Origin: Modestobacter sp. VKM Ac-2984
GTDB lineage: Bacteria > Actinomycetota > Actinomycetes > Mycobacteriales > Geodermatophilaceae
Direction of reading: 5' to 3'
Length of the DNA: 64,000 bases
Assembly: GCF_026967985.1 (NCBI RefSeq)
Contig: NZ_JAPVBJ010000003.1
Location: 247,101-311,100 of the forward strand
Shown: positions 8,534 through 30,519 of the stretch, one piece after another
Numbering within the stretch: position 1 is the first letter of the stretch
Layout of the letters: every line of letters starts with the position of its first letter
Program-made: the position numbers and the translations under genes
The notes under the pieces: generated by a model
What the model saw: only the letters and a program-made list of their open reading frames with translations
Database searches by the model: none
What the model was told of the DNA's origin: nothing

Positions 8534-9544
8534 TCAGAACTGGAAGACGATGCGGGCGGGGACGTGCCCGGAGAGAACGTCGGCCATCGCCTCGTTGACC
8601 TCCTCGAGCTTGCGTTCGGTGGTGACGACCGTCGTGCGGCCGGCGGCGTGCAGGGCGAAGACGTCGGCGAGGTCGTTGCGGGTGCCGACGATCGAGCCGA
8701 TCACGGACTTGCCGGCGAGCACGGTGTCGAAGATCGGCAGCTGCATGGTCCCGTCGGCCGGCAGCGCGACGCAGACCAGCCGACCGCCGCGCCGCAGCGA
8801 CAGGTAGGCCTGGTCGAAGGAGGCCGGTGCGGCGGCGAGCGCGACGGCGACGTCGGCGCCACCGAGGGCCTGGATCGCGGCGACGGGGTCGGTGGTGGCC
8901 GCGTTGACCACCTCGTCGGCGCCGAGCTCGCGGGCCATCTGCAGCTTGTCGTCCTGGACGTCGACGGCGATGACGAAGCCGCCGGCGATCCGGGCGTACT
9001 GCAGGGCCAGGTGGCCCAGCCCGCCGATGCCGAAGACGGCGACGGTCTCGGCCGGCGCGACCCGGGCGACCTTGATCGCCTTTTAGGTGGTGACGCCGGC
9101 GCAGGTGAGGGGGGCGGCGTCGGTGCTGGAGACACCGTCGGGGACCGGCGTGGCGAAGTCGGCGGCGACGACGGCGTACTCGGCCAGGGCCCCGTCGACG
9201 GAGTAGCCGGAGTTCTGCTGGGACTCGCACAGGGTCTCCCAGCCGCCGATGCAGTGCCGGCACTCCCCGCAGGCCGACCCCAGCCAGGCGATCGCGACGC
9301 GGTCACCGATCGCCCGGGAGGTCACGCCCTCGCCCAGCTCCTCCACGACGCCGATGCCCTCGTGCCCGGGGGTGAACGGGGGAGTGGGCTTGACCGGCCA
9401 GTCGCCGCGCGCAGCGTGGATGTCGGTGTGGCACAGGCCGCTGGCCTCCATCCGGACCAGCACCTGACCTGGCCCCGGCCGGGGGACGGGCACGTCCCGG
9501 ACCTGGAGGGGGGCACCGAGCTCGGTGACGACGGCGGCCTTCAT
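8534..9544 (-). pseudogene. Zinc-dependent alcohol dehydrogenase interrupted by one in-frame stop
   Basis: The frame codes for a complete AdhP-like enzyme: catalytic-zinc region SGLCHTDIHAARGD, GHEGIG, the structural-zinc cysteines CGECRHCIGGWETLC, the coenzyme loop GIGGLGHLALQYA and the C-terminal ARIVF. At 9083-9085 codon 154 is TAA, within the conserved motif CAGVTT-stop-KAIKVA, where this family normally has tyrosine. The frame is otherwise open on both sides (same phase), so a single base change (TAC to TAA) explains it. Either the gene is a recent pseudogene or the base is a sequence error. The GC-rich start context with ATG at 9544 looks normal. Confidence 0.88.
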
Positions 9545-28478: not shown

Positions 28479-29219
28479 ATGGACTTCGCCGAGCGGTTCG
28501 ACGAGGCGCTGGCCGCCGAACTGCCCGACCGCAACGGTGACCTGGACCACCTGCCGATGCGACTCGCCCGCGCCGCCGCGGCAGTGCTGGAGGTGGACGG
28601 AGCCGGGTTGGGCGTCCACGGTCGCCCGCACCAGCGGACACCGCTGGCGGCCAGCGATGCGACCGCGGCGCTGGTGGAGGAGCTGCAGTTCACCATGGGC
28701 GCCGGCCCGTGTCTGCAGGCCGTGGAGCGCGGTGCCCCGGTGCGGGCCGTGGAGGCGCGCCTGGTGAGCGAGTGGCCGGCGTTCCACGACCAGTTGGTCG
28801 CCCGCACCCCCATCCGCAGCATGCTGGCCCTGCCCCTCCCCGGTTCGCTGACGGGGTTGGGCTGCCTCTCCCTGTACTGGACCGACCCGCTCGGTGCGGC
28901 CACCGCAGCAGAGTGCACGGCCGGCCGGGTCGCTGCCCTCATCGCCCAGCGGTTGGGGGAGGCCGCCGCGTGGGATCCGTGGTTGCCCGCCGAGGTCCCG
29001 GATGCGCGGGACACGCCGGAGGCGCGCCGCCGGGGCCGGCTGTGGATGGCAGTCGGCATGGTCATGCTGGGGCAACGGCTGGAGGCCACGGACGCCTTGG
29101 CGCTGCTGCGAGCCCATGCCTTCGCCGGCGACCGGACGGTCGACGACCTGGCGGATGACCTCGTGGAGCGACGTGTCCACCCCGACTGCCTGGCCGGTGA
29201 CGACCCCATCGGCTCGTGA
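28479..29219 (+). CDS. GAF-ANTAR domain transcription antiterminator
   Basis: The first about 165 residues form a GAF domain (LQFTMGAGPCLQAVERG, RSMLALPLP). The C-terminal about 55 residues are an ANTAR RNA-binding domain, with RRRGRLWMAVGMVML and TDALALLRAHAFAGDRTVDD. ANTAR proteins bind two-hairpin RNA and prevent termination. ATG at 28479 with GGGAGGGG upstream. It is the gene immediately upstream of the sodium-pump-type rhodopsin (154-base gap, same strand), so control of rhodopsin expression through the leader is conceivable but not shown. Confidence 0.9.
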   Translation: MDFAERFDEALAAELPDRNGDLDHLPMRLARAAAAVLEVDGAGLGVHGRPHQRTPLAASDATAALVEELQFTMGAGPCLQAVERGAPVRAVEARLVSEWPAFHDQLVARTPIRSMLALPLPGSLTGLGCLSLYWTDPLGAATAAECTAGRVAALIAQRLGEAAAWDPWLPAEVPDARDTPEARRRGRLWMAVGMVMLGQRLEATDALALLRAHAFAGDRTVDDLADDLVERRVHPDCLAGDDPIGS

Positions 29220-29373
29220 GCGTTCCTCGAGCTCAGGGCGGAGCGGTTCGGGGGCCGGTCGTCGGGCCACGTCCTGGGCTGCCGATCGCCGCATCCGAGG
29301 TGTGGCGGGCGGGCGAAGAGCCAGGTGTTCGTGATCGAGCAGAGGCACGAGGCCGCGATCCCCCAGGAGACCC

Positions 29374-30213
29374 GTGAACATCGAGAACACCTTCACCTAC
29401 GACTTCTTCCAGTACACGATCGTGTCCCACGTCTTCACCGTCGGCTACGCCGCCATGGCCGCCGGACTGGTGTACTTCGTCCTGACCAGCAAGAACTCCC
29501 TGCCCAGGTACCAGCTGTCCTCGACCCTGTCCGCGGTCGTGATGGTGTCGGCGTTCCTGGAGCTGCTGGTCATCTCCCAGAAGTGGGAGAGCGCCTTCCG
29601 TTGGGACGGCGCGGCGTTCAGCCAGGCGGACGCGCTGTTCTCCAACGGCTACCGGTACATGAACTGGTCGATCGACGTCCCGGTGCTGCTCCTGCAGATG
29701 CTGATCGTGCTCGGGGTGACCGGCGCCGCCTTCCGCCGCGGCTGGATCGTGTTCACCGTCGCCGGGCTGGGGATGGTCTACACCGGCTACGTCGGCCAGT
29801 TCTACGAGGTCGAGCGCAGCGCGCCCTTCTGGATCTGGGGATCGATCAGCACGGTCTTCTTCCTGGTCATCCTGGCGCTGGTCCACCGCACCGTGTACGG
29901 CAACGTCGGCCGGCTCCCCGCTGAGGTTCGCCCGCTGGTCAAGGCCGTGTGGTGGCTGCTGCTGGTCTCCTGGATGCTCTACCCCGGCGCCTACCTGATG
30001 CCGGCGATCTGGGACTCCGCCGACGGCGTGGTCGCCCGGCAGATCACCTACACCGTCGCCGACGTCACCTCCAAGGTGGTCTACGGGATCCTGCTGGCGG
30101 TCATCGCCCGCAAGGTCAGCAAGCACGAGGGCCACGACGAGGCCATCGCCTCCGACGTCACCATGCCCCGCGGTGGCATCACCGAGGTGGCTGCTCCCGG
30201 TCGAGCCGCCTGA
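29374..30213 (+). CDS. Microbial rhodopsin, sodium-pump type (NDQ motif)
   Basis: The 279-residue protein is a seven-helix type I rhodopsin. Helix C reads RYMNWSIDVPVLLLQ, placing Asn97, Asp101 and Gln108 at the three diagnostic positions: the NDQ motif of light-driven sodium pumps such as Krokinobacter KR2 (Asn112, Asp116, Gln123). Helix G carries Asp230 and the retinal Schiff-base Lys234 (ADVTSK). KR2 hallmarks are kept: His19 (SHVFTVGY), Glu145 (GQFYEV), Arg222 (VARQ) and SWMLYPGAYLMP. At the cytoplasmic entrance it differs: Ser50 and Ala242 replace KR2 Asn61 and Gly263. GTG start with AGGAGA site. Sodium pumping would drive sodium-coupled transport in light. No retinal synthesis gene is nearby. 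Confidence 0.95.
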   Translation: MNIENTFTYDFFQYTIVSHVFTVGYAAMAAGLVYFVLTSKNSLPRYQLSSTLSAVVMVSAFLELLVISQKWESAFRWDGAAFSQADALFSNGYRYMNWSIDVPVLLLQMLIVLGVTGAAFRRGWIVFTVAGLGMVYTGYVGQFYEVERSAPFWIWGSISTVFFLVILALVHRTVYGNVGRLPAEVRPLVKAVWWLLLVSWMLYPGAYLMPAIWDSADGVVARQITYTVADVTSKVVYGILLAVIARKVSKHEGHDEAIASDVTMPRGGITEVAAPGRAA

Positions 30214-30519
30214 TCCGGAGGACGGCGTCCTGACGGCGGACGCACGCCGCGGTCGACCACCTGGTCCCGGACCGGGTGGCCGGCCGCCGGGGCGGAGGCC
30301 GCGGCTCGGGGTGCTCATCGGCCACGCCGCCACGGCCCCGATGGCGCTGGGCGCCCTCCTCGTGGCGCCGGTGGCGGGCCGACGACCCGCCGGGCGACAC
30401 ACCGGCCGGCGCCCGAGTTCGAGCCGGACTCCCCAGCTGTCTCCCCGTGACACCCCACGTGTTCACCGGCCGGGCCGAGTCTGGAGGTCCCGATGGACCG
30501 AGCACAGGAGGACCACCTC
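30214..30519. other. 306-base gap after the rhodopsin gene
   Basis: No convincing gene. A short hydrophobic reading stretch near 30310-30370 has no ribosome site or family match. No perfect terminator hairpin was found. Confidence 0.5.

Follow-up and report, generated by a model that had tools for sequence, protein, structure and literature searches.

A predicted Subgroup 2 sodium-pumping rhodopsin beside the remnant of a blh gene in the desert actinobacterium Modestobacter sp. VKM Ac-2984

An NDQ-type rhodopsin gene and its surroundings

The genome of Modestobacter sp. VKM Ac-2984, a strain that stems from a salt crust of the Kyzylkum Desert (4.56 Mb on 21 scaffolds; PMC10190537), comprises 4,557,465 bases on 21 contigs. 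We analyzed a 64-kb stretch of it (hereafter the window; 74% G+C) that carries a gene for an NDQ rhodopsin, which we refer to as NaR, and directly downstream the remains of a blh gene. The following features, all on the plus strand, were assigned in window coordinates.

29365..29369, +: AGGAG, resembling a ribosome-binding site, a few bases 5' of the GTG start (read from the sequence)
29374..30213, +: NDQ rhodopsin (NaR) gene, GTG start, 279 amino acids, Subgroup 2 by Glu63 (PF01036, PDB matches, residue map, tree and AlphaFold2 model)
29560..29562, +: codon of Glu63, position of the additional Schiff-base counterion (ErNaR E64, KR2 L74; alignment)
29662..29697, +: codons of the helix C NDQ motif, Asn97 (29662-29664), Asp101 (29674-29676) and Gln108 (29695-29697), aligned to KR2 N112/D116/Q123
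30061..30075, +: Asp230 (second counterion) to Lys234 (retinal-binding lysine), aligned to KR2 D251/K255
30214..30252, +: former blh start region with the spacer kept, CTG in place of the relatives' GTG start, then the join left where about 134 bp were deleted (blastn; comparison with the related locus L004)
30241..30380, +: 140-bp remnant of blh (beta-carotene 15,15'-dioxygenase; blastn to positions 9011-9151 of locus L003, 89% identity, E 2e-49, inside the 326-amino-acid Blh reading frame L003:8857-9834)

The NaR reading frame, which closes with a stop codon at 30211-30213, is intact, and its match to the Pfam family Bac_rhodopsin (PF01036; E 5.9e-37) lies far beyond chance. Its closest relatives of solved structure are sodium pumps, namely IaNaR (8jh0; 1e-70), ErNaR (8qle; 2e-68) and KR2 (4xtl; 3e-63), while the chloride pumps with an NTQ motif in the PDB gave E values of 1e-58 or weaker and the Gloeobacter/xanthorhodopsin group of proton pumps values of 1e-34 or weaker. 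A 239-amino-acid reading frame at 28500-29216 adjoins NaR upstream and has a weak, below-cut-off match to the GAF domain; we did not count it as a conserved light-sensing partner, the matching stretch being located about 4 kb or more from NaR in the related loci L005 and L006.

Active-site residues and assignment to Subgroup 2

In the alignment with KR2, NaR carries the full signature of the sodium pumps: R94, N97, D101, Q108, D230 and K234 correspond to KR2 R109, N112, D116, Q123, D251 and K255, and H19, E145 and R222 to KR2 H30, E160 and R243. A first-pass annotation of this DNA had read both the helix C and counterion/lysine residues and the retention of the three further KR2 residues from the letters alone, and the alignment bears this out; its proposal of a sodium-pump-type NDQ rhodopsin in a genome of the Geodermatophilaceae agrees with both the motif and the tree described below, the genus being Modestobacter. 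Its description of NaR as a plain match to KR2, however, fails, and the most informative departure from KR2, Glu63 at the position of KR2 Leu74, was absent from it. This residue is unchanged in all 25 aligned sequences.

NDQ rhodopsins have been divided according to the residue at KR2 Leu74 into Subgroup 1, with Leu or Ile (represented by KR2), and Subgroup 2, with Glu (represented by ErNaR), a second trait of Subgroup 2 being the loss of KR2 Asp102 (Podoliak and colleagues, PMC11006869). The extra Glu of ErNaR serves as an additional counterion of the Schiff base, and sodium pumping by ErNaR persists to a pH as low as 5 (PMC11006869). In NaR, the equivalent of KR2 Asp102 is Ala87, so that a residue of the interprotomer sodium site is replaced. 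Judged by Glu63 and by the missing Asp102 equivalent, the Modestobacter protein belongs to the ErNaR-like Subgroup 2, and by analogy to ErNaR, sodium pumping with little dependence on pH would be expected of it.

ErNaR from Erythrobacter sp. HL-111 (PDB 8qle, 9tbd; Subgroup 2) shares with NaR the RNDQDK set, the extra Glu (E64, corresponding to E63) and the absence of KR2 Asp102, and it is also the best match in fold; the two proteins are 47% identical, and the loop near Glu145 contains an insert of eight residues in ErNaR that NaR lacks. The host of NaR, unlike that of ErNaR, is an actinobacterium. KR2 from Krokinobacter eikastus (PDB 4xtl, 6xyt; Subgroup 1), likewise 47% identical, has all nine of the aligned residues listed above in common with NaR but differs from it by the exchanges Leu74 to Glu63, Asp102 to Ala87, Asn61 to Ser50 and Gly263 to Ala242, and the BC loop of NaR is four residues shorter than that of KR2. 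IaNaR (Subgroup 1), the top-scoring PDB entry with 53% identity, in contrast to NaR has Leu at the position of Glu63 and Asp at that of KR2 Asp102. The NaR proteins of Modestobacter sp. VKM Ac-2985, Ac-2982 and Ac-2977, M. caceresii, Blastococcus sp. VKM Ac-2987 and B. capsensis (loci L003-L008) are 86-97% identical to that of VKM Ac-2984 and contain the same active-site set.

It has to be considered that NaR might act mainly as an outward proton pump during low-sodium phases of its habitat, with sodium as one possible cargo, given that pumps of the KR2 type transport H+ if no Na+ is present (see the review PMC9728251). With the Glu-bearing ErNaR, however, proton currents at pH 5 are negligible even if sodium is lacking (PMC11006869), and NaR has the same Glu; we therefore judge a predominantly proton-pumping role to be very unlikely.

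Phylogenetic placement and predicted fold

In the phylogenetic tree, NaR groups with proteins from Modestobacter, Blastococcus, Pseudokineococcus and the Micromonosporaceae (support 100/99). The Glu-bearing group, which comprises NaR together with cyanobacterial, acidimicrobial and Erythrobacter proteins, received a support of 93/91, just under the starred level; KR2 and IaNaR are sister to it, and KR2, IaNaR, ErNaR and NaR are held together with 97/90. The placement among the NDQ pumps thus matches what the first-pass annotation had anticipated. Trees in which NaR was forced to join the DTE proton pumps or the NTQ chloride pump were both rejected by AU tests (p-AU 0.029 and 0.002, respectively). 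The residues lead to the same result: a proton pump of the xanthorhodopsin/actinorhodopsin type carries its Asp acceptor and Glu donor in helix C at the positions where NaR has Asn97 and Gln108, and an NTQ chloride pump is expected to have Thr at the position of KR2 Asp116, which is Asp101 in NaR.

An AlphaFold2 model of the NaR monomer (pLDDT 89) has ErNaR as its top fold match (TM 0.88-0.90). The fold comparison by itself does not separate sodium from chloride pumps because NTQ pumps score TM values of 0.89-0.96 as well. The closeness of the general fold to the NTQ chloride pumps is what could be cited for NaR being a member of a chloride- or proton-pump clade that converged on the NDQ letters; the tree, the AU tests and the many other NaR-specific positions that match leave such a convergence next to no chance. 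We conclude that NaR is a real NDQ rhodopsin and very probably a sodium pump.

Decay of the linked blh gene

Blh (PF15461), a beta-carotene 15,15'-dioxygenase, makes retinal. Eight other genomes of the Geodermatophilaceae bear NaR, and in seven of them a blh gene is located directly 3' of NaR and starts within about 20 nt of it. In VKM Ac-2985 (L003), the likely GTG start of blh lies about 17 nt past the NaR stop codon, and the Blh reading frame matches PF15461 at 3.6e-43. We searched the window for an intact blh gene and found only the 140-bp remnant. Two blastn segments define the junction, window positions 30100-30252 corresponding to L003 8727-8877 and positions 30241-30380 to L003 9011-9151. 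The gene has lost about 134 bp close to its start as well as about 700 bp from its body, and the joins show short overlaps. VKM Ac-2984 differs in this from the strains of loci L003-L008, in all of which an intact blh directly follows NaR. We found no description of the loss of a NaR-linked blh gene in the available literature, and it is this loss that constitutes the new part of our findings. Two rhodopsin-blh pairs stand in a row in VKM Ac-2985 (L003:4480-9834), a DTE rhodopsin with its blh being followed by NaR with its own. In the Micromonosporaceae, a Blh gene is found within about 2 kb upstream of NaR on the opposite strand.

When NaR was compared with each of its two nearest sisters, dN was 0.011 and dS 0.111, and the resulting dN/dS of about 0.10 shows that the gene is under constraint overall, though not for certain since the loss of blh, because a pairwise dN/dS spans the time before as well as after that event. 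One could view NaR as an intact-looking but idle relic that obtains little or no retinal after the loss of its linked blh and is on its way to becoming a pseudogene. The reduction of this blh by two deletions is in keeping with such a course, as is the 99% complete genome of another Modestobacter strain (G093), which retains NaR while no Blh match was detected anywhere in it. However, the NaR reading frame of VKM Ac-2984 is intact with all active-site residues in place, its low dN/dS relative to the sisters stands against a blh remnant that has drifted to 89% identity, and the genome contains a second, intact Blh gene. We consequently regard an idle NaR in VKM Ac-2984 as unlikely. Some strains could nevertheless have ceased to use NaR, given the broken linked blh and the Blh-less genome G093, and the latter is the stronger case of a decoupling of NaR and Blh. 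The NaR gene of G093 (L082, G093:C1:1493396-1494232, minus strand) resides in a different neighborhood.

An unlinked Blh gene beside a second rhodopsin

The only intact Blh gene of the VKM Ac-2984 genome is present on contig C2 (50965-51753), directly after a gene for a second rhodopsin (C2:49814-50530), and the two genes form a common locus (G000:C2:49814-51753; L069 7755-9775). The second rhodopsin, which carries a DTE motif and has Phe where KR2 has Trp215, is closest among proteins of solved structure to the cryorhodopsins CryoR1 and CryoR2 (E 2e-70). The genome further contains a phytoene synthase gene adjoined by two genes with lycopene-cyclase domains (CrtYc/CrtYd-like) and an amine-oxidase-family reading frame of the carotenoid-desaturase type, which together indicate that beta-carotene could be produced by this strain. 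For lycopene cyclases of the CrtY type (PF05834), all matches were short and confined to the beginning of the model; what the genome does contain is the two-gene CrtYc/d type.

Since the linked blh is reduced, NaR is constrained and the other Blh gene has been kept beside the DTE rhodopsin, the retinal for NaR probably comes from this unlinked locus. The simplest reading is that both rhodopsins share the retinal supplied by the C2 locus.

Proposed function of NaR

Taken as a whole, we infer with considerable confidence that NaR is a light-driven, outward NDQ sodium pump of Subgroup 2 whose linked blh has decayed and whose retinal is most likely provided by the unlinked Blh. By analogy to KR2 and ErNaR, retinal would be bound to Lys234, and its isomerization by light would be followed by the movement of the Schiff base proton to the counterion pair Asp101/Glu63. 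Na+ would then enter by way of Gln108 and the Schiff base in the direction of Asn97 and Asp230, and would be released to the outside via Arg94, Glu145 and Arg222. Glu63 would be expected to provide for a counterion complex that works over a wide pH range and to favor Na+ over H+. With the decay of the cognate Blh, once the immediate downstream neighbor, retinal would most likely be derived from the unlinked Blh beside the DTE rhodopsin, which may in turn be fed by the carotenoid genes of the genome. Somewhat more guardedly, we favor the wider picture of a desert actinobacterium in which a sodium pump of the ErNaR type operates after the decay of its own gene for retinal formation, and in which an NDQ rhodopsin and a cryorhodopsin-related DTE rhodopsin share a single, unlinked source of retinal.

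Cultivable strains from saline desert crusts that possess a Subgroup 2 pump would make light-driven sodium export testable on land, in natural hosts that have a linked gene for retinal formation as well as in others that lack it. The intact and broken NaR-blh pairs of close relatives offer a natural comparison for asking if the pump depends on a Blh of its own.

Distribution of NaR and its relatives

The subgroup to which NaR belongs had been defined before, and the relatives that we found show that NaR is not the sole case in its family or phylum. Tarlachkov et al. (2020) reportedly had NDQ among the rhodopsin types of the Geodermatophilaceae. Eleven rhodopsin-bearing genomes of the family were announced in a report that cites this study (PMC10190537). 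NDQ rhodopsins with 86-100% identity are present in nine of 115 Geodermatophilaceae genomes, VKM Ac-2984 included, and relatives also occur in one Pseudokineococcus and five Micromonosporaceae; more distant ones are common in metagenome-assembled genomes (MAGs) of the Acidimicrobiia and present in cyanobacteria. The extension of the range of NDQ rhodopsins that had been proposed from the sequence is thus not new, at least eight other genomes of the family and many Acidimicrobiia MAGs having such relatives and the rhodopsins of the family having been published (PMC10190537).

Among 395 sampled genomes of the class, no NaR was found at E 1e-50 other than that of VKM Ac-2984 itself; its distribution is therefore patchy, as expected for a mobile gene. 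The window genes near NaR had no match in the regions that flank NaR in Blastococcus, Pseudokineococcus and the Micromonosporaceae, except for a single isolated one in each of two Micromonosporaceae loci. In the tree, the NaR of the Pseudokineococcus MAG (Kineosporiaceae; L009:8001-8831) is nested among those of the Geodermatophilaceae, and no blh was detected within 8 kb of its gene; a transfer is likely in this case.

Two further kinds of rhodopsins were encountered. Four other Actinomycetota (L072-L075; genomes G286, G413, G440 and G458) have NDQ rhodopsins in which Leu occupies the position of KR2 Leu74 and His that of KR2 Asn106; in the tree, these branch outside the group formed by the chloride pump together with the classical NaR proteins. 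A member of the Geodermatophilaceae from another genus encodes an NTQ-motif rhodopsin (L044; G063:C1:3512059-3512832, minus strand; RYVNWFVTVPVLLVQ) whose nearest solved relatives are flavobacterial chloride pumps (E 2e-41) and which may itself be a chloride pump.
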